The notes under the pieces were generated by a model that was given only the letters and a program-made list of their open reading frames with translations, was not told where the DNA came from and made no database searches. The position numbers and the translations under genes are program-made. A stretch of DNA of 64,000 bases from Hyaloraphidium curvatum (lineage: Eukaryota > Monoblepharomycota > Hyaloraphidiomycetes > Hyaloraphidiales > Hyaloraphidiaceae). The stretch is taken from assembly GCA_025558095.1 (NCBI GenBank), contig JAIVFI010000004.1, positions 372,001 through 436,000 of the forward strand, written 5' to 3'. Of this stretch, positions 35,133 through 47,416 are shown in pieces (within the stretch, counting starts at the first letter, position 1; every line of letters begins with the position of its first letter).

Positions 35133-37334
35133 CTACATTTTTTCGAGCGGCTCAATACCCAGGAGCATCATGCCCGTCTTCATGGTGGCCAGCGTGGCCT
35201 TGCACAGGCGCAGCCGCGACGCGCTGACGTCCTTGTCCACGCTCTCGCCCAGCACGCGGCAGTCCCGGAAAAAGTCCGAAAACTTGCCCGAGAGGCCGTA
35301 GATGTACTCGCACAGCTTGTGCGGGAGCAGGTCCACCTGCACGTCGACGATCACCTCCTGGAAGCGGCAGAGCTCGACTGCCAGAGCCATCTCGGAGCGG
35401 TGCGTGAACAGGAAGGCCTTGTCGTAGTCGGCCTCAGGGTACGCGAGCACGGCCTCCACGTTCACGTCCTCCTCGGCGGCCTTGCGGAAGATGGACTCGA
35501 TCCGCGCGTGCGCGTACTCGAGGTACACCACCGTGTTGCCGTCGGCGCTCAGCATGCGCTCGTACGAGAAGCCATAGTCCTGGTGCCGGTTCTGCTTGAG
35601 GTCGTAGTACTTCATGCCGCCGTACCCGAGGATCGACGACGCGCGCTCGATCTCCTCGGGCGTCAGCTTGGGCCGGCCCGACTCGGCGTCGGCGCCCTCG
35701 GCCTGGTACGTCTTGACCACGCGCTCCTTGGCCTCGTCCAGGACGTCCACCAGGCGCACGCTGTCGCCGCTCCGCGTCTTGAGCTTCTTGCCGTCCTCGC
35801 CCAGGATCACGCCGAACCCGGCGTGCTCCACCCGCGTCACGGCGGGGTCGTACCACCCCGCGAGGCGGCCGGCGCCAAAGATGAGGTCAAAGTGCAGACC
35901 CTGGCCCTGGTCCACGACGTAGACGAGCCAGTCGCCCCCGAGGTCCGTGAGGCGGTACTTGAGCGCGGCCATGTCCGTGCTGTCGTACCCGTACCCGCCG
36001 TCCGACTTGACCAGCATCACCGGGACCTCCTGCCCCGGGACGCGGATGATGAGGGCACCGTTGTCGACCTCGCAGATGCCCTTGTCCTTGAGCTCCTGCA
36101 CCACGGCGGGGATCTTGTCGTTGTAGAACGACTCGCCCAGCAGCTCCAACCGCTTGTCGACGCCCAGGCGCTCGTACACCTGGTCGAACATCTTGGCGCT
36201 CGCCGCCACCATCCGCTTCCAGAAGGCGATGTTCTCGGGGTCCAGTGCCTGGAGCTTGACCACCTCCTGGTGCGCGCGCTTCTTGAACCCCTCGTCCGCG
36301 TCGAACCGCTTCTTGGCGTCCCGGTAGAATGTCGTCACGTCGCGCAGGCTCGCGTCCAGCTGCTCGTCCGTCACCTTGCCCTCGGCGAGGAGCTCCTTGA
36401 CGTGGGCCAGGAGCATCCCGAATTGGGTGCCCCAGTCGCCGACGTGGTTGGCCCGCTGCACGATCTCGTGGCCGCAGTACTCCAGGATCCGGGCGAGCGC
36501 GTCGCCGATGATCGTCGAGCGGAGGTGGCCGATGTGCATCTCCTTGGCAATGTTGGGGGAGGAGTAATCGATGACCACGCGGCGCTTGTGGTCGCCGGGG
36601 ATCAGGGTGGGCTTGACGCCGTGGCGGACGGTGTAGCCCAGCCGAGATTTAAGGTAGTTGGTGGCGAGGTAGATGTTGATATAGCCCGGGCCCGAGGCGG
36701 CGAGCTTGCCAATCATGAAATGCGGGCCCTTGGCCTCGATCGCGGCAATGACAGCCTGGGCCGCCGCCTGGGGCGACGCGGGTATCGGGCCGAGGTCCAC
36801 AGCAGGCGCAGGTGCAGGTGTGGCCGGGTCGGGTTCCGGCGCGGGAGGTTCCGGTGCGGGAGGTTCCGGTGCCGGTTCGGCATCCTTGGCATCGCCTTTG
36901 CCTGACAAAACGGCATAGTCAGCTCCTGAAGCTGGATCAACCCGGGCTCACGCTCATCGCCCCCGAATGGCAACGAAAACATCACGAAACCGCCAAGCCT
37001 TAACCCAAGAAGCCCCTCGCCGTCCCCGAAGCGTCTACGCACCCTTTTTCTTCTCTTTTTTCTTCTTGTCGCCGGCAGCGCCCCCGGCCGCGGTCTTCAG
37101 GCGGTTGAAAACGGCGAACGCCGAATTGCATTGGTACTGGTGGTCAAATTTCGGGTCTTCCACGAGCGCAATGACGGCATCGCCCTGGCCCAGCGCCCGG
37201 GCCTGCGGGAAGGCGGTGTGGATGGCGTCCGTGAAGAGACGCGTGAGCTCCGCCAGGATCGACACGGTGTTCTGCTCCGTGTCCGACGGCGACAGCGGCG
37301 CTGCCGTGGGATACGATGGCAGGCTCGTGGCCAT
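35133..37334 (-). CDS. Arginyl-tRNA synthetase
   Basis: Exons 37334-37043 and 36901-35133 (intron 141 nt, GTGCGT...TTTGTCAG with a GCTGACT branch, phase 1) encode 686 aa. The ATG at 37334 is in a perfect GCCGCCATGG context. Exon 1 holds the tRNA-binding N-terminal domain (DPKFDHQYQCNSAFAVFNRL), then a lysine and Pro/Glu linker. Exon 2 has the class I catalytic core: SSPNIAKEMHIGHLRSTI (HIGH motif), NHVGDWGTQFGML, a KMSKS equivalent in DGKKLKTRSG, and the helical anticodon-binding domain ending in GMMLLGI. It charges tRNA-Arg with arginine using ATP. The shorter alternative start at 36982 with a 50-nt intron was rejected because it drops the N-terminal domain. Confidence 0.93.
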
Positions 37335-37795
37335 GGCGGCTGCGCGGCCGGCGTAGGCGCGAGAGTCCGGGGAGAAGAAGGTGGGAAGGAGAGAAACGGC
37401 GGACGGCGTCGGTCGCAGGAAGCCCCGGCAGGCAAGCGGCGGGAAGCCAATCGTCCGATGAATGAGCGCCCTGCCGACGAAACAGATCCGATCCAGCGTG
37501 CGCTCGTATGCTGCTCCACTAGCTGTTCGCGCACAAACGTGGCTACACACATATGGAATGCTACTTGCCACCAAAAAGGCGGTCCTCTCGGACTCCACCT
37601 CGATCAAGCCCACAATCGGGCACAGGCGAGGGCTCGCACCACCCGCCAATTTGTAGAGAAGAAAGATAAGAAGACCCACGGCCGGGGCCGTCCAGCCTGA
37701 CCTTCTTGGCAGAGCCGCGTCCCCGCGCCACCGCACCAGGACGCTTGGGCACGGTGGGAACGGATCCGGTCTGAAGAGTGGTGCCTGCAACGCCA
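37335..37795. other. 460-bp gap, right flank of the transposon gene
   Basis: No gene is supported. A minus-strand frame just 3' of the polyprotein stop reads a basic stretch (VPKRPGAVARGRGSAKKVR) that could be an unrecognised last exon, but no convincing intron connects it. No terminal inverted repeat was found by eye. Confidence 0.4.
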
Positions 37796-40700
37796 TCAGC
37801 TCACACGCTCCAAAGCGAGCAAAATCAGCGTACCAGCGGACTTCGCGGCCGGCTTCGACGGCTTGCGCCTCCTGGTGTCAGGCTTGAACGGCCAGGGGCG
37901 CTCGCCACCGGTAGCGATCGCGAACCAGAACAGGTACCCGATGGACCGACAGCTGTTGACGTCCCTCATCCAGTACGTGCGACAGGTCGGGCAGTACTTG
38001 GCGCCCCGGATCTCGCCACGGCACCCGGGGTTGGTGATGGGGACAACGTAGGTCGTCAGGCACCTGCCGAGAGGGCGATCAATGCCGCGAAATCAGGCGC
38101 GAAGTACGAGGGAAAACTCACTTTGAACACATCTGGCTCGTCAGGTACTCGTTGATCAAAACGAGGATTCCAACGGCCGCGAGCGCGGCCCTGAACTGCA
38201 CAATCCGAGAAGCCGGACCGCCCTTGCTTGCGTGACCAAAGCGGGCGGCGCCATAGGCGAAGGTGGTCTGGGAATCGAACTTGCCCGAGTACGGGTTGCG
38301 ACACAGGTCGCGGGCGATCCAGTCGAGCACCTGCCGACGCCTCCGGATGGTACGGACGCGGTCGCGGCTGCAAAAGAAGGCGTCAGGAAGGCTGCATCCC
38401 AATCACGCAGGCTGGCCGTGAACAAACCATATCTCATCATTGCAGTAGAACTTGACGACGGAGCAGAGCTCCTTCGTGATGGCATGGGCGTACTTGCGAA
38501 ACTGCTCGCAGCTCGTCGTCCGCTGCGAAGGCAGTGCCGATTCCCAAGCCTCGATTGTCAGGCCGGAGGGGAGGGTGTGCGACTTGCGCAGCGACGCCAG
38601 TTTCCTAGAAGCGTGCTGGTAACCACACATCCGGCGATCGAGGTCCCCAGGCACGCCGAGAATGAGCTCCGGAAGCTGGCGGACGCCGGCGCGCCCAAAG
38701 CCGGCGATACCACCCCAGAACCTGTCCCCGTCGGCATCGGACCCGCCGTCGGGGTTGGGGAAAAGCGTCCAGTTCCGTTCGGCCTTCCGCAGCTTCTCGT
38801 CGCGGTTCGCATGCCCGCGGTTGGTCGGGCGGTGAGCCGAGAGCTTGGCGGCGCCGTCCGGGTGGTGTCGGCAGCGGATGTTGCGCGGCGCCGCCTGCGT
38901 CGCCCGCGCAACGCGGGCCGTCTCGTCGCAGGAGTGTTCGAGCCGGATGTCCTTGATGCGGCCCGCAGAGATGCACCCCTTGGGCACGTTGGCGCGCACA
39001 AGAATGTATGTCGATGTGGTGCCGTCCGGGTTGGTGACGACGATCTTCTCCGAAAGCTCGGGTAGGTGGGTGTTGGCGAAGTCGAACCGTCTCCCCGGGC
39101 CGGGGTCCAGGCAGCGGGCCACAAACGCGGGTGCAAGTCGTCGACCGCCCTGCATATAGAACCAGCGATTTGGATCGCAAAAGACAACGCCACCAGAAAC
39201 GGGAAGGCCCCGTTGGGCGGCATCCCACATCTCCTCTTCCGTTGCCATTGTTAGGAAGTGCGGCATTAGCTTCTCCGCGTCCGCCTTCCGGCTAAAGTTG
39301 TAGCACGGTATAGAGGTCTTCCAGTCAACAGGCGGACGAGGTATCGATGAGCACGTAGAGCGAGGGTGCGGTGGGAGAGGAGCGGAGGTTGGAGGCTGAG
39401 CAGGGGCAGGTGGAGAAGAGGGCGGAAGCGGAGAAGATCCTGCGGCACCCACAGGCGAGGCCGTCGGGATGGGAAGAGGAGGCGGAGGAGCGAGGGTGGG
39501 AGTGAAGGAGGATGGAGACTCGGAAGGTACCGATGTGGAGGAGTTCGGTGATGTTGCGGGTGGGGGTTCGGGGGGGATGGAGGCGGGAGGCGGGAGCCCG
39601 ATCCAATCCTGATCCACGTCCATCCACGTGAAAGGAGTCGAGTCGGGATCTACCAGCAAGTGCTCGGCATCGTCGGTAATGGCGGGCGGGGGGAAGAAGA
39701 CGGTCCCGCCAGCATGGAGCCAGCCGTGAGCTTGAAGATGAACACATCAGCAGCGCTGAGTGCAGCGGCAAGGATGACATACCATCAACGACGGCCATGC
39801 CCGGCGGGGGGTCCGGAGCACCGTGCGGAAGGGTGGGCACGAGGACCGCGGGCATCCCGAACGAATCTTGGGCCGAAAAGTCGTGCCAGTGGGCGTGCTG
39901 TTCTGGCTCCGTACACTCCCAACACGGCTCGGGCGATGGCGCGCTGAGGAAGACTGTTGGGAAGCAGGTTAGGCGCGGAAGCTCCGATGAAAGAACGGGG
40001 ACCTACAATCCAAGGGCGGCGTCACTTTGGGCTCAGATTCCGTCCACTGCTGCTGCGGTGCCTTCGGCTTCGAAGCCCTGGGCACGACGGCCATTGTGCT
40101 CCTCGACAATGGCAAAGGTTGGGCCACGAAGAACCATGCCAGCAATGCACGAGCAGTGCAGCGCATCGCCCGACCGGCGAAGGGTCGGCCGTGAGGCGTC
40201 CGCGTGCCCTGCCGGGGAGCGCTTCCCCTCCTGATGGAGGCGGAAAAGACGCTCGTCCTGAACAATTTTGTTGCCATTGTTGAACAGGTGTCCAAACAGG
40301 TAATCGGGGTTGATCTTGGCCACGTCCGGTGCCAAGGGGCCGAGCTTAACACCGAGCATCTTGAAGAGGTCGGGCAGATCGCTCGCGGTTATGTACAGGG
40401 CTATGGGGGTGAGGGAAATCCTGGTCAAGAGCGGCCGGATCCCGCCCGCGGCCCAGGTCCCTCCGGTGGTGCCGCCTTGGGTCCTTGACTGCTGTTGTTC
40501 ATGAAACGTATCAGAATGACGACCTCACCACGGGAGAGAACGCGTCACCCACGCTCTTCTCCCCGCTCCCTCCGGCCGCGCTGGACCATCGGCGAGCCGC
40601 CACACGTGACTTCCCCAATCGCTTCTTCACCTTGCCCTCGGGCGACAGCGGCGCCCGCTTCTTCCCCGTCGTGACGTAGCCATGGAATCGCTTGGGTGCC

Positions 40701-43700
40701 CCGTTCTTCGGCCACGGCTTGGGGTCCACTCGGATCGGTCGGCCCTTTTTCGACTTCTGCTTCCCGCCGCCGATCGTGGGGAAGTCGTCAGCAGCCTCAA
40801 CATTGCCGTCTTCCGAGTCGGAGCATTCCATGTCCGCGCAAAGCAGGTCCACGGCGGCACTTCCGCGGAACAGAGTCGCAGAGGGTCCACCACCCTCCGC
40901 CTCGTTCGCAGGGTCAACGTCCATTGCGGCCTCGGTGGTGAAGCTGGCGGCGACGCGCCGAGCGCTGTCCGCCGCACTCGATGATGAAGGTGTCGGTGTC
41001 GAGCTTTGCGGCAAGGCCGTCGGGCTTGGTTCAGATCCGGTCGAGGCAACGCTTGACGATCGCCGCATCTTGAGCCTCGCGATCTGCTCCTCCCGCAGCC
41101 GCATAGTCTGAAAGAGAGCCTCGGAGCCAAACGCGTCCGCGTCCGCGCATTTGCCCGTCTGCGCGAGGCGAAGTTCAGCTGTGCTCAGCTGACGCGCCCT
41201 CTGCCTCTCATCGAGCAGCTCCCTCTCGTAGCGCTGCAACAGCGCCTCCTTGTCCAGGCCCTCCGTCCACTCCGGCCCCCAAAAGCGGCTCTTTGTGGGG
41301 TGGATGCCAACCCCCTGCACGGAGGGGATCTCGACGGGGATGCCACGCAACTGCAGCTTGTCAGCCACATACGTCTCGACCAGTTCGTGCCGCTCCTCCT
41401 CCTGCAGTTGCCTGATCGCTTCAGGCGGCATCCGGCGGAGCTCGGCTTGGGCCCGGTCGCGCAGATCCAGCAGGTACGCCGCCTTTGCGTCCTCCTCGTC
41501 CTGCGACTTGCCGCGCGCCTTCTGCGGCGATATGGCGACGCTGCGGATACGCGTCGCCATCGCCGACCGCTTCAGCTCCACGTCCCGCTTCCTCAGCGAA
41601 AGCATCACGCGCTGTAGGACAGTCGCTGGCCATTTTGGCCGGTCGCGGGGCTCCCGCAGGTCCATGATCGTATTCAGCGAGCGTCCGGATAGCGGCAGGA
41701 GTAGCCAGGTCAGGCGAAGCCGAGCCTCCGCGTCAAACTCGGGGCTGCAGCCAAAGGCCGCGAAGCTGGTGCCGAAAAAGTTCGTATCACCCGTCCCGAG
41801 CTTGGCCAGCACGCAGCGCAAGATGTGGCCAATCTTTTGCCGCTTCACGGCGTTGTCCAGCTCCTCCTTCAGGAAGGTGCGGATCAGGTCCGAAAGCTCC
41901 TTGCGCAGCTGGATGGGGACGGTGCGGAGGCGTCCTGCGGCAAGATTCCTGAAGTAACCGAGCAGCGGGCCGCGCAGCAGGTAGTGGTGCCAGTCGGCAA
42001 ACTCGGAAGCCAGGTCCGGCCTCAGCTCGTGGTAGGCGTCGGTGACTACCGCCCGCAGAACCGCAGCCGCCGCGTTATGCTCCTCCACGGAGAGGGTGCC
42101 GGGACCGTCAAAAACCTCGCCGTCGTCGGCCATCCCGTCGCCACCGAAGCCGGCGCCCAGAGCTTCCAGCACGTGTTCAGGTCCGTCGGCTTCCCCCTCG
42201 CCGGCCAGGAAGTCCGCGAACCCGGCGTATTCACCGAAATCTCCGCCCTCCTCTTCTTCTTCCCCATCTTCGGCAGCGGGCTCGTCATCGTCCTCCGCCA
42301 ATTCCGTGACCGTGCCGAGTCCCGCGCCAGTTGCGGTGATCTCCACGCCCGGATCCGTGCCGATGTCCCCGCGCGGCTTCTTCCTCCGGCGTGTGCCTGC
42401 GTTGGCGTTTAGCGCCCCCTCGTTCAAAACCACCAGCATCGCCATGTTCGCTACGACGGAAGGTGGGAACTTGCGCAGGATGGCAGGGGGAACGGAGCGG
42501 TTGTCCAGCAGACCGTTGTATACTGCCAGCATCGCCGAGGTCCAGACGAGCTTTGCAAAGGACGCCGCACCGGTTGCGGCGCGGGAAATGAGCAGCCCCA
42601 CGCTCTTGAGCGGCTCGATCGCCCAGGGGTGGAGGGCCTCCTCGGGCAAGAACCAGGTTGTCGACATGGCGCGCTCGGTCACGTGCCGCTCGTGCTCCGC
42701 ATCCCCGACGGCCTTGTACGCATTCTCCGCAGCTTGCCGCAAAGCCGGCCGGCATCCTCGCCGGTGTCCCCGGGTTGTCGACAGGCAGAGGTGGCACCTG
42801 GGCTCCTTTGCCGCGCAACCTTCGTCCTTCGCCCCGTCTACGTCCATCGCCGTTGCTCCGGCGGCAGCACTCTCCGCTTCCGTTGCTTGAGTGCGGCAGG
42901 CGTGCGGCACAATGTAGTTGACCTGGGCGAGCAGCAGTCCGCGCCGTGATGTGAAGGCCCGGGGGATGACGAGGCTGGGACAGCGAGGATGAGTAATGAC
43001 CCCGTGTGGATCTCTTGCGGAGACCTACTGGAGAGGAGCATCTGCATGCTGGGTTTCCACGTGTTCCCGGTACTTGGCCTCGAACGCAAACGTGACACGC
43101 CTGCCGTCTTTGCGGCAGATCTGGCACGTAAAGTGCTTCCCCGCGACGTGATGCCCGAGCCGCACGCCAGCGTCGTACTGGCGCTGATCCGACGACTTGC
43201 CGGCCGTAGCGCCGTTCGCGTCCTTTCTCTTCCGCTCCGGGTTCCGAGCCGGCACCCGGCCCTCGACCGCCACTGTGAAGGGACAATAAAGGCATCCGAG
43301 GGAACAGATGTCGACGCGCTTGGCGTCAAAGGCCTTTTCGAGCGCGTCCAACTTCAGGTGGAACGCGACGCTCGCGCGACGGGCGGCGTCGCTGACAGGG
43401 TTCACGAGCGAATCGAACCCCCAATAGTCCAGCAAATGGTCGCGCATCGGGTGGCCAGAAAAGATCAACTCAAACAGGACCGAGCGCCCCTCCTCTCCGT
43501 GCACAGCAGCCAAAGCCTTGTCGAAGAACGAGCCGAGGTCCGCGTCCGCCCTTTCGCTCACGCCTCTTAGCCCCTTCGTGGGCTGGAAGATCTCGTAGAA
43601 GGTCAGCGGCTGCGAGGAGTGCACCGTCAGCCCAGAATGCTGGAGCTGGAAGCCAGAACGTTGCTCACCAGCGCGGGCACCGGACCACGATCCGGTATGC

Positions 43701-46065
43701 CCAGGAGCGCCTCGTTGGCCTTCATGGGGCCCCAGAGGAAGGTTTCGAAGAAGATGCGGCGCTGTTCAGCCTGCTGAAAGGCAATGTCCTTGGGCAAGTC
43801 CGTGCGGACAACGAGCGCCATGCGCTCTTCCAGAGTCAGGCTGGCGAGCGCAACCTCGAGCGAACGACTCCTCCGATCCCACAGGGCTTTCCCGGACGCG
43901 TTCTTGAGCGCGCCGAGGGCGTCCTCCAGGATCTTGCGCCAGTTCTGCGGCCGGCGGAGGTGGGTCTGGGCTGGGAGCTCGAAGTCCTCCACGGGTATGA
44001 GCCCGGCTTCCGGCTGGCGAACGAAGTGCCGCACTCGAGCAAGGAATACGGAATGGACGAAATCATCCAAACGAGCCGCATCACTCGCCATCAGCCGCCC
44101 ACGCAGACGGATCTCGGTCGCTGCCGTCCAGCGGTGGAAGCCTCCTTCACGGTCGACCGCCACCAGGCGCGAGACAAAAAGTCGTTCCTTCCTCGTCGCG
44201 GAGAGGGACGAGTAACTGCCGTCCGGACGACCCTGGTCCAGGTCGGAAAGCCCGGCACAGCACGCGTACTTGACAGCCTCACGCAGGTCCTTGGGCACGG
44301 TCGGCTCCAGCGCGTAGTCCAGCAGAGCGTCCAGCTGCGCCCCCGGGGCTCCGACAACGGCTGGAGCGAAAATCGGGTTCGCTAAAACAGTTGGAAAGAG
44401 CGGCGGAGGCGGCGAGAGGCCGGAAGGGGTGCCCGCAGTGGCCGGCGATGGTTCGTCGGCGACGGGCGCGGGGAGCCGACGTCGCTCGACGAAGTTCCGC
44501 AGCTTCCGGCAGAGGGCCGCGCGGACCTCCTTGCCTTTGCCTTTCTCGACTGCGGAGCATATTCCGCGGAACTGGTCGGGAGGGAGGGAGGTGAGGGTGC
44601 CGATGACGTCCTTGGAGGCGGTGGCGCGGGCGTTCTGCAGCTCGTCCAGAAACGTGTTCCACGCCGATCCGAAAGCACCTCCATTACTGAGTCCTCGTAG
44701 TCGGCCATAGAGCTGGTTCACATCGTAGGCCTTGTGGACGTCGACCTCGGCCACTCCGAGTTCCCGGGCCTGGGAAGTCAAACGGAGGTCGGCACGCGTC
44801 AATGACGACGGCGACGAGTTCCCCACCTCCTGCAGCAGGCGGGCCGCTTCTCGAGCAGCGATGCCGTCGTCCACCGCGTTCCTGGGCGCGGCCCCGGGAC
44901 CCGGTCCGGTGTCCATGCGGGTCGAGTTTGTGTCTCCCGTGATCTCGCCAGTTGCCGTTTCCGGTTGTATGCACCCGCTCGTGGAACCAAGGTTGTCGGA
45001 CCGAAGCATCTCCCGCTGAATGCGCGCCTTCTCTTCCGCGCTGAGCTTGATGCAGTGCCGAAAAGTGGGACAGAGATCGCTCTCCCCAACAATTCGTATC
45101 GCCCTCTCGACAGCGTCAATCAGATCGGCCACAGTGGAGGGACAGTCTCGCCGGACAAGGCGCTTCAACCGCCCTATCACGTGCTCACTCGCATTGAACT
45201 CGGGAGTACGGGGTCGCAGGTACACGAGGTTGAGGTTGTTGGCTTTCGCCACCGCCTGAACCGCGAGGAACGATTTGCCGGAGGTGTTCTCTACAATCGC
45301 AGTACCATTTGCGGTCTTCTTTGCCCTCAAAGGGGATCCATGGTAACCAGCATTGTCAATCACAATGTTCAGCGCGTTCTTGGGGCCCTGTCCGTCTGCC
45401 TTAACAGACCTCAAGAAAGCGCAGAATCGCTCCGTGTTCATATTGCCACGGTAGATCACATACGAGATCACCGTTCCAGCAACTGCTCCCGGACGAGGAC
45501 TTGGTGACACTGCGAGACACAGAGTCACCTTTGGACCTCTATTCCGCGGGAGGTAGACAACAGCGCGGCTTCCGCGGTCCGAGTACCCGTGGCTGCCCGG
45601 GTCGTTGAGCTCGAAAGCCGTTTCGTCCAGTGCGACCATGCGTTCCATAGGCACATTCTCGATGCGACTATGAAACAGAAGATGCCTTTCCGGTTGCCGT
45701 AAGGCCTCGGAAGACTTGACGGTGAGCCTCTTCCTAGTGACGCCATTTGCCTTCAGCAGCCGCGAAACGTGCTGCTGGGAGACGCGGATCCCGTACTTTT
45801 CTGCCAGAAAAAGAACTAGCTCCTGCTGGGTGACCCTGACCTGGCTTTTTGCCTCGTGTACGATGTCCTGGACCATCTGGTCCGTGACCTTGCGGCGGCT
45901 CCGGACCTTGCGAACTCCCTCTCTCGATGCCGGGGGCAGCGATGCCCACTTGATCCAACGAAAATAGGTCGTGCGATGTACTCCCAACGACGCAGAAATC
46001 TCCGCCGAGCTCAGCTTCCCAGTCTGCTTGAGCCGAGTTGCGATGGCGGGGCCGTCCACCAACAT
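37796..46065 (-). CDS. Transposase-Fanzor polyprotein (DDE transposase fused to TnpB-like nuclease)
   Basis: Nine exons (46065-43669, 43609-43029, 42974-40529, 40491-40108, 40046-40007, 39953-39783, 39730-38407, 38367-38122, 38063-37796) join without a phase conflict into 2,618 aa. Residues 1-~330: Tc1/mariner-IS630-like transposase with HTH (LGVHRTTYFRWIKW), DDE residues in ALDETAF (~148), IVIDNAGYHG (~240) and EFNASEHVIG (~297). Middle: helical region, paired-cysteine fingers (CLYCPF, CQICRKDG, CHLCLSTTRGHRRGC). C-terminus: RuvC-I-like VVFCDPNRWF (~2192), then the Fanzor/TnpB end, EYLTSQMCSKC...CPTC zinc finger and WMRDVNS (~2525-2570) with the last catalytic Asp. Fanzors are RNA-guided nucleases carried by eukaryotic transposons, normally as separate genes. 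The exon D/E boundary (near 40.05-40.1 kb) is the least certain; two or more genes remain possible. Confidence 0.7.
37796..46065 (-). mobile_element. Core of a mariner/IS630-like transposon carrying Fanzor
   Basis: The coding core of a DNA transposon inserted between arginyl-tRNA synthetase and the GNAT gene. Coordinates are those of the polyprotein; true ends lie outside. They cannot be far out: flanking host genes start at 46261 and 37334. TA target duplications and terminal inverted repeats were not identified. The intact long frames suggest recent activity. Confidence 0.65.
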
Positions 46066-46260
46066 TGGCGTCCGGGGCACAGGTAGTTGTGAAGAAGCCC
46101 GAGGCGCAGAGTTTGCAGATGGAGATGCCAAGGCCACTGGCTCGCTGCAACAGCTAGTAGCAGAGGCGATGTGTGCGACTACGGGAGTCCGATGAGGCGC
46201 GGATCGACGCGCGATCAAAACAACCGTGAACCCGGAAGCCAACCCCCAGACGGGCGAACG
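46066..46260. promoter_or_regulatory. Interval between transposon gene and GNAT start
   Basis: The 195 bp between divergent starts should contain the left transposon end, the transposase promoter and the GNAT promoter. No inverted repeat is obvious. Confidence 0.4.
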
Positions 46261-47416
46261 ATGAGCGAGTCTGCTGAAGTTGCTGCGTCTCCGGCAAAGA
46301 TTGAGTATCGTCTGGCGCGTGAGGAGGATCTGCCGACGTGCGGGGAGGTGTTCTTCGAGGCAAGTACCGCACCCATTGCATGATCTCCTGCATCTCTTTG
46401 ATATCTGCGCACGGCAGGGGCTCACCGGCTACCTGAAGAAGCTCAACTCGGCGGACAAGCTCATGATGATCCGGGAGCGCATCTTGGCGGACGTGGTTCG
46501 GTTCTACCGGCATGCTCTCCAGACGGATCCAGAGAACTTTTTCATTGCTGAAGACGTGGACGCGGACAAAATCGTCGGTTTCGCCACTGCGACAAGCCGA
46601 CCTCCGATGTTCTTTGTCGGTGCGTACGCCCGGCACGGACTGCTGATCCAGCAGTAAACTCCGTCTGGCCCTCCTCCAGGCTTTGTTTTCGTACTCCCGG
46701 ACTACGCGCACCCCAAGGCCAAGGGCGTCGGCCGCACGCTCTTCGGGCGCCTCATGAAGAACGTGCCGGAGGGTGATACTGTCGGCCTGACCGTCGACAC
46801 GGCGCAGCCCATCTCGAATAGCCTCTATGCTCAGTGGGGCGTGGTCGGGAAGCAGCCCTTGCAGTACCTCGACGGACCGCTCGACGTCTCGAAAATCGAC
46901 TTCCGCAGAACGCTCACCCCGGTCAGCATCGTGGCTTCAAATCCCACCGAGTCGCAGATCACGTTCGAGGACGCGCTGCCGAAGATCCGTGCTCTTGACG
47001 CGGATATTGTTCGGTTTGCGCGGAGGAAGGAGGATTGGGACTTCATCTACGCTGGCCGGCCCATCGCGCAACTCTACAAGGACGAAGGCGGCGCGGTTGT
47101 CGGCTACTCTTTCGCTCGGCGCGGCGCGGGCATCGGGCCCGTGGTCGTCAAGAAGCCGGAACTGCTGAACGAAGTCGTGATCGACGCGCTGATGCGTGCG
47201 CTCGAGGCCGGTCGCGAAGGGAGAGAGAACCCGGAGCAAGTCACGGTATCGTTGTGGTTCCCGTCAGGCGCCCTTCCCGAGCTCTTCGCGCTACTCCTGA
47301 AAGCGGGAATGAAGATCTCCGGCTTTCCAATGTTGCTGGCATATAACGGAGCTGCTGGAGAGCCATTCCTCTGTGATCTCTCACGGGCTCTCATGTACAG
47401 TGCGTCGATGTTTTGA
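46261..47416 (+). CDS. GNAT-family N-acetyltransferase, tandem GNAT-like domains
   Basis: Exons 46261-46359, 46418-46619 and 46680-47416 encode 345 aa. The first intron is GC-AG (GAG|GCAAGT, 58 nt, phase 0): no GT donor gives a compatible frame, while this one yields EVFFEGLTGYL. The second (60 nt, GTGCGT, phase 1) joins MFFVG to FVFVLPDYAHP. Residues 1-170 form a GNAT domain (YRLAREEDLP, VVRFYRHAL, VLPDYAHPKAKGVGRTLF containing the acetyl-CoA loop, YAQWGV). The second half (EDALPKIRALDADIVRF, RPIAQLYKDEGGAVVGY, VSLWFPSGALPEL) repeats the layout. Similar fungal proteins are annotated only as acetyltransferases; the acceptor is unknown. It ends 69 bp from the convergent GMPPA gene. Confidence 0.85.

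Follow-up and report, generated by a model that had tools for sequence, protein, structure and literature searches.

Does a single gene in the GC-rich monoblepharomycote Hyaloraphidium curvatum encode both a transposase and a Fanzor nuclease in one protein? Fanzors are known from eukaryotic transposons as separate passengers. The question is raised by a 64,000-nucleotide (nt) stretch of the genome (contig 4, positions 372001 to 436000; hereafter the window). A first-pass annotation of its letters had proposed that a DDE (Tc1/mariner-IS630-like) transposase, cysteine-finger regions, and a C terminus with Fanzor/TnpB marks, all on one strand between 37796 and 46065, are joined by eight introns into one reading frame of 2,618 codons. 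We find that this locus is a copy of a multicopy transposon and that one spliced gene probably encodes one transposase–Fanzor protein of about 2,600 to 2,700 residues. Its predicted layout is an N-terminal IS630/Tc1-mariner-like DDE_3 transposase, a zinc-finger–containing middle, and a C-terminal Fanzor1-like RuvC nuclease.

A Transposon with Several Copies and Families

Whether the element has other genomic copies, a point raised by the first-pass annotation, was answered by searching the host genome (31.9 Mb in 55 contigs) with the window transposase open reading frame (ORF). The 34 places that matched include two multicopy families, which we call A and B, and weaker matches. Family A consists of five near-identical copies, the window one included; the other four are 99.6 to 99.9% identical to the window element across one repeat of ∼8.6 kb, from ∼46180 to 37540. 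Family B has 10 copies, 47 to 48% identical to the window transposase ORF, and two diverged elements on contig 2, C and D, were each found once. The 15 A/B copies recovered by the transposase search were recovered again by searches with exons 2 and 3 and with the RuvC part, a 1:1 copy number. Because copy identity is high, we infer that the copies moved recently.

The ends of the window element, left at 46181 and right at 37540, extend it slightly beyond the limits first annotated for the gene. Imperfect terminal inverted repeats of ∼26 base pairs (bp) were recognized by eye in both A and B.

37540..46181, minus strand: whole A-family transposon, ∼8.64 kb; ends near-identical across five genomic copies, CG/CG flanks
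46156..46181, minus strand: left terminal inverted repeat, imperfect, ∼26 bp, TAGTCGCACACAT...TGCTACT; judged by eye against the right end and B ends
37540..37565, plus strand: right terminal inverted repeat, imperfect, ∼26 bp, TGGCTACACACAT...TGCTACT; compared by eye

Both ends were readable in 14 copies (5 A and 9 B; the left end of the tenth B copy was not found in the stretch examined), and 12 of these carry 2-bp target duplications. All nine B copies do (CC, TG, TG, AC, AT, GC, CG, CC, and AG), as do three of the five A copies (CG, which flanks the window copy, CT, and CC). The A left boundary was placed one base outside a conserved AGTCG, matching B; with the boundary at AGTCG itself, duplications match in none of the five copies. 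A TA duplication was seen in none of the 12 found in these 14 copies. The mariner label, which the DDE_3 domain and the inverted repeats bear out, is therefore only loosely right, since the duplications are 2 bp of any sequence. Directly inside the left repeat, at window positions 46142 to 46148, a length-variable stretch occurs in three forms among the otherwise near-identical A copies.

One Predicted Reading Frame from Transposase to Nuclease

The DDE transposase was readily confirmed. A minus-strand ORF (43627–46425) contains a DDE_3 domain (Pfam, E = 4.1e-12, 46.6 bits against a cutoff of 28.6) with the triad D147, D237, and E294, in which 56 residues separate the second D from the E. Helix-turn-helix (HTH) Pfam models match the N terminus below their cutoffs. 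Zinc-finger–like clusters are present downstream on the same strand, in line with the cysteine-finger regions first annotated, and the Pfam search of the ORF covering the exon 3 middle region gave no match there. Splicing in silico at eight GT-AG introns gives the following model of the gene.

43669..46065, minus strand: exon 1, 799 codons; HTH-like region and DDE_3 transposase with C-terminal extension (Pfam, comparison with B)
43610..43668, minus strand: intron 1, 59 nt, phase 0, GTGAGC...CTGAC...GCAG; same position and phase in B, C, and D
43029..43609, minus strand: exon 2; linker and zinc-finger–like region (CLYC..., FTCQIC...HVETQH), conserved with B
40529..42974, minus strand: exon 3; long middle region with a C-x2-C...H-R-x2-C knuckle, 35% identical to B over residues 1011 to 1800
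40007..40491, minus strand: exon 4; one base longer in the window copy (comparison with the four other A copies)
39783..39953, minus strand: exon 5; a 24-residue block matches B
38428..39730, minus strand: exon 6; proline-rich linker and RuvC-I, D2212 in DPNR (alignment)
38122..38367, minus strand: exon 7; RuvC-II, relocated glutamate E2534 (NEYLTSQMCSK), 83% identical to B over 83 residues
37834..38063, minus strand: exon 8; zinc ribbon CPTC and RuvC-III aspartate D2577 (WMRDVNS) (alignment, four-family profile)
37561..37784, minus strand: exon 9; basic tail and stop, the last part not conserved in B

With these eight introns, a single predicted frame of 2,693 codons runs through four of the five A copies, and the last intron (37833–37785) carries that frame beyond 37796. 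The number of introns proposed at first thus stands for these four copies, and the length of 2,618 codons does not. The copy for which it had been proposed is the one that departs from the model: with the introns of the other A copies, the window copy falls out of frame in exon 4 because of its extra base, and it stays open only via a weaker alternative intron of 45 nt. The frame derived from the window alone probably absorbed this one-base difference.

Family B provides an independent comparison. Four of its 10 copies were examined; two read through 2,653 codons with six introns, one reads through 2,596 codons, and one is frameshifted. The 2,596-codon copy, on the minus strand of contig 7, has lost 171 bp in frame from the proline-rich linker that precedes RuvC-I, and its fused frame is open. 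Six introns lie at matching positions in A and B, and A carries two extra. The B proteins match A exons 1 to 8 in the same order and exon 9 weakly. Overall the two proteins are ∼39% identical in two BLAST stretches (residues 1 to 1623 and 1724 to 2649), the first of which spans the junction between transposase and exon 2; identity is 65% in the DDE part (residues 1 to 350), 35 to 39% in the middle, and 56% in the RuvC part. Since the coding blocks recur in matching order in a second multicopy family, the arrangement is not due to chance. It also extends to the diverged elements. In all of A to D, a transposase is followed by a zinc-finger–like region and a Fanzor RuvC part, in the same order and on the same strand, and in C and D the distance from transposase start to RuvC is ∼7 to 8 kb. 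The exon 2 zinc-finger–like region is recognizable weakly in C (tblastn E = 0.002) and more weakly in D (E = 0.25 to 0.6, by eye).

Could chance ORFs or dead exons have been joined across stop codons? The exon 4 problem of the window copy and the lack of a tblastn match at E = 0.01 for the middle regions of C and D would fit such an artifact. Exons 1 to 8, however, are conserved at the protein level in an independent family, and frames are intact in near-identical, recent copies, so that we regard this explanation as largely refuted and very improbable. The full fused frame was built for A and B only; in C and D, modeled at the junction alone, continuity from exon 2 to the Fanzor part is a prediction. 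The out-of-frame window copy and the frameshifted B copy count against the fusion.

Intron 1 Decides between One Protein and Two

The downstream frame comes into register across A to D only by removal of intron 1 (43668–43610), and the fusion claim rests on this intron. It is phase 0 in all four families and has similar lengths (59, 57, 60, and 59 nt in A, B, C, and D, respectively). A "VP" segment precedes it in each family, and exon 2 begins straight after the GCAG acceptor, with the heads PLTFYEIFQ (A), LLSFPGLFQ (B), ARTLQECATA (C), and AQTIEEAFAA (D). The position, phase, and length class shared by four families thus support the single-protein fusion that the first-pass annotation had put forward. 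No start codon is conserved at the exon 2 head across A to D, where the first Met lies at residue 55 (A), 10 (B), 70 (C), or 43 (D). Readthrough of the TGA within intron 1 was considered as another route to a fused product and rejected, since with the intron unspliced the frame would hold in B (57 nt) and C (60 nt) but be lost in A and D (59 nt each).

Several observations at the same junction bear on the case against a fusion. Retention of intron 1 would add a 13-residue tail and then an in-frame TGA in four of four families. The A and B readthrough tails are more alike than shuffles (p ∼ 0.002): identity without gaps is 56% (20 of 36 positions), whereas 55 control comparisons of other introns common to A and B average 26% and reach 44% at most. 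In gapped DNA alignment intron 1 is no outlier (z of 1.7 against −0.5 to 3.5), and the A/B tails bear no resemblance to those of C and D. At the start of exon 2, changes are not clearly concentrated at third positions (12/13/15 over 25 codons), and the Met at exon 2 residue 55 in A aligns with residue 54 in B, which permits an internal start.

These points can be read in two ways. In one, there are two separate proteins: the transposase ends at the intron 1 TGA, the 14th codon after the donor, and exon 2 to Fanzor is expressed from its own transcript, from an alternative leader exon joined to the intron 1 acceptor, or from an internal start. The TGA in four of four families, the similar A/B tails, and the aligned internal Met fit this scenario, and the published Tc/mariner-type Fanzor1 elements, as far as the accessible text of that report goes, encode separate proteins (PMC3627910). 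It is at odds with the lack of a conserved start at the exon 2 head, with the presence, in each of the four families, of a phase-matched donor where the conserved transposase sequence ends, and with intron 1 lengths that differ and yet all restore the frame. We consider two separate proteins unlikely.

In the other, regulated splicing would give two functional outputs, a transposase of ∼812 residues when intron 1 is retained and the fusion when it is removed. P-element repressors are a precedent for such dual output. Intron 1 is intron-like in all four families and coding-like in A and B, as this scenario would have it, but the tail is not conserved between A/B and C/D, and by our own reading the TGA is likely the core of a branch point (CTGAY), expected ∼15 to 18 nt from the acceptor anyway. 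Dual output, which overlaps with the reading we favor, has in our judgment a real chance of being correct, if somewhat short of even. Because the retained intron ends in TGA in all four families and the A/B tails are unusually similar, a transposase-only isoform beside the fusion is plausible, and intron 1 retention may thus additionally yield such a protein. Our preferred reading remains that the spliced gene is predicted to encode a transposase–Fanzor fusion.

The C-Terminal Part Resembles Fanzor1

The Fanzor/TnpB marks first noted at the C terminus proved to be genuine features of all four families. In C-terminal alignment, the RuvC catalytic residues D, E, and D are invariant in A to D, as are the four zinc cysteines of the ribbon and the RD that follows. 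A relocated glutamate six residues before the first CxxC is a Fanzor fingerprint according to the accessible part of PMC10711439, and a glutamate in this position is present in each family: NEYLTSQMC (A), NEYLTSQMC (B), NEHGSSANC (C), and HEHGSSQKC (D). An element on contig 23, described below, has REFRTSRMC there. Profile searches likewise placed the C terminus with TnpB/Fanzor models and not outside them. PF07282, with a cutoff of 26.3 bits, is matched above it by C (32.9 bits) and D (36.5 bits) and just below it by A (25.5 bits, E = 1.5e-5, spliced piece) and B (26.1 bits). Every member matches TnpB models in NCBIfam at E values of up to 1, the best at 1.7e-6 and A only at 0.18. When solved structures were searched with a profile of the four families, the best matches were LaTranC (E = 6e-4) and Guillardia theta Fanzor1 (E = 1.2e-3), followed by a TnpB-like protein from a virus (0.11) and by three proteins without a relationship (at least 0.33); the matches are limited to the last ∼57 to 71 core residues. 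The A RuvC part alone gave no relevant match to solved structures.

Two features deviate from published descriptions. RuvC-I reads DPNR in A to D, with DPN in place of the DPG that is described as "near exclusively" present in Fanzors in the accessible text of PMC10711439, a point against the assignment. Since the SpuFz1 metal ligands include D383 and N385 (PMC10432273, as far as its accessible text goes), DPN here may be known variation. The Fanzor/TnpB pattern D-X(125,275)-[TS][TS] is given in the accessible text of PMC3627910; in A, the first D is ∼324 residues from the TS pair, outside that range. Among viral contigs, 81 pattern stretches were found, none of which was confirmed as a relative. 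On the strength of the conserved residues and profile matches, we call the C-terminal part a Fanzor1-like nuclease, for which RNA-guided cutting is predicted at most.

A Mostly Constant Distance to a Host Motif and a Conserved Hairpin

Does the element choose its targets? The three family A copies that bear duplications each have GCGTCGATC, in one case with one mismatch, and its end lies exactly 20 bp away from the element.

46202..46210, minus strand: host target motif GCGTCGATC, outside the element; ends exactly 20 bp from the insertion point

In the two A copies without duplications, GCGTCGATC is present but nearer than 20 bp. The left flanks of B copies contain a GGCAAGGGGTTTCCC-like motif that ends exactly 20 bp from the element in eight of nine copies. 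The motif therefore differs between the families, and its distance and orientation, upstream of the left end, are the same. The summed information of the B motif is 11.0, against a maximum of 6.95 across 5,000 random-offset runs, and in leave-one-out tests it ranks 1 or 2 of 536 positions in eight copies (147 of 490 in copy B_C5). The right flanks of B copies showed nothing comparable. Of five genomic occurrences of the 12-mer AAGGGGTTTCCC, two adjoin B copies; the other three, away from all A and B copies listed, are predicted as future B targets. We rejected the possibility that the motif is part of the element: it lies outside the 2-bp duplication and is therefore host DNA. In a search inside the elements for an encoded guide to the motif, a B-motif matrix reaches best scores of 11.7 (B) and 10.2 (A), none of which stands out; real sites score 12.3 to 19.7 in eight of nine copies and 2.6 in the ninth with a matrix that includes them. 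Left out of the matrix, real sites score only ∼4 to 17, and the matches inside elements are thus not clearly worse.

What reads the motif? It may be a host factor-binding or promoter site that neither the fusion nor its Fanzor part reads, an explanation to which we give close to an even chance. The genome contains GCGTCGATCAC 79 times and the reversed pattern 6 times (a control that does not preserve dinucleotide content), as a host regulatory site might show, and the window insertion lies upstream of a minus-strand gene for arginyl-tRNA synthetase. The identical 20-bp spacing in A and B despite different motifs is harder to reconcile with it. Alternatively, the Fanzor or zinc-finger module, maybe helped by RNA that includes the right-end hairpin described below, would read a family-specific motif and the tethered DDE domain would insert exactly 20 bp away, a former RNA-guided nuclease having become the targeting arm of a transposase. 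The spacing seen here is near the distance from their recognized motif at which Cas12/TnpB-type nucleases cut. This second explanation strikes us as doubtful. If the 20-bp rule were caused by the fusion, a single polypeptide would act as a targeted transposase in a eukaryote, which would make it directly relevant to programmable DNA insertion.

Near the right end, A and B share a hairpin.

37574..37609, minus strand: near-terminal hairpin GCTTGATCGAGGTGGAGTCC-GAGA-GGACCGCCTTTT, with T run; conserved in A and B

It is 36 to 37 nt long and 92% identical between A and B, whose surrounding 3′ ends align poorly. A 19-mer from it has exactly 15 mismatch-free occurrences in the genome, one per A/B copy, and in C and D inspection by eye shows TGATC and a hairpin in a comparable position. 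In the A gene model the hairpin shared by A and B overlaps the final codons, and in B it follows the stop. An Rfam search of window positions 37300 to 46400 gave no match up to E = 1. We regard the hairpin as a candidate guide-RNA scaffold or end-binding site.

A working scheme for the fusion protein can be proposed from these parts. The HTH-like region would bind the inverted repeats, and the DDE triad would cut and join DNA, leaving a stagger of 2 bp. The Fanzor part may help choose or cut DNA, perhaps while carrying an RNA with the right-end hairpin, or else the nuclease might cut the empty donor or target site, a cut that would lead to the element being copied back. With both parts tethered in one chain, integration would be coupled to cutting of the target or donor. 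If the fusion has indeed been kept through diverged families, both activities would be needed together, which is testable with one protein.

Comparison with Known Systems

The closest systems are PGv-1 and PUl-1, Fanzor1-encoding Tc/mariner elements described by Bao and Jurka in 2013 (PMC3627910). According to the accessible text of that report, they likewise combine a DDE transposase and Fanzor1 in one element with terminal inverted repeats, and PGv-1 has the transposase in its 5′ part and Fanzor in its 3′ part. In contrast, they encode separate proteins and have TA duplications, and some are virus-borne, whereas the element described here has one predicted spliced gene, 2-bp duplications of any sequence, a length of ∼8.6 kb, and a large unannotated middle. 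SpuFz1 and GtFz1 (Saito 2023, PMC10432273) share the RuvC D/E/D residues and the C4 zinc ribbon, and SpuFz1 also has an Asn two residues after the first Asp, as in DPN here. In the accessible text they are stand-alone nucleases, whereas the nuclease here would be the C-terminal part of a transposase fusion of ∼2.7k residues. Words starting with "fused" or "fusion" do not occur in the accessible text of PMC3627910, nor do "fused" and "fusion" in that of PMC10432273. No transposase–Fanzor fusion is described among the literature matches listed, insofar as their text was accessible, in agreement with the novelty first suspected. What appears to be new is the predicted covalent fusion; a Fanzor and a separate mariner transposase in one element were already known (PMC3627910).

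With IS630/Tc1-mariner transposases, the protein shares an HTH-like N terminus (below Pfam cutoffs), a DDE_3 core with D-D-E, and a 2-bp duplication; it differs in having no TA preference, in the 56 residues from second D to E, and in its C-terminal extension. Type V-K CRISPR-associated transposons pair a Cas12-family module with a DDE transposase as separate subunits, use a CRISPR guide, and insert at ∼60-bp spacing. The likeness lies in the pairing of a Cas12-family-type module with a DDE transposase and in the fixed spacing from recognized site to insertion, the differences in a predicted single fusion, a guide that is only a candidate, and a spacing of 20 bp.

Other Loci and a Neighboring Gene

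A larger element on contig 23 (296501–315800), left out of the family count, combines a transposase match (E = 4e-70) with a weak Fanzor-like zinc-ribbon match, REFRTSRMC...WSRD (E = 0.008 with the A query and 0.001 with the B query), the two separated by ∼17 kb on the same strand. Weak matches on contigs 13 and 15 lie 20 to 23 kb from a same-strand transposase match. In the window itself, the element lies upstream of the arginyl-tRNA synthetase gene (35133–37540, minus strand; Pfam E = 1e-109), perhaps in the promoter region.

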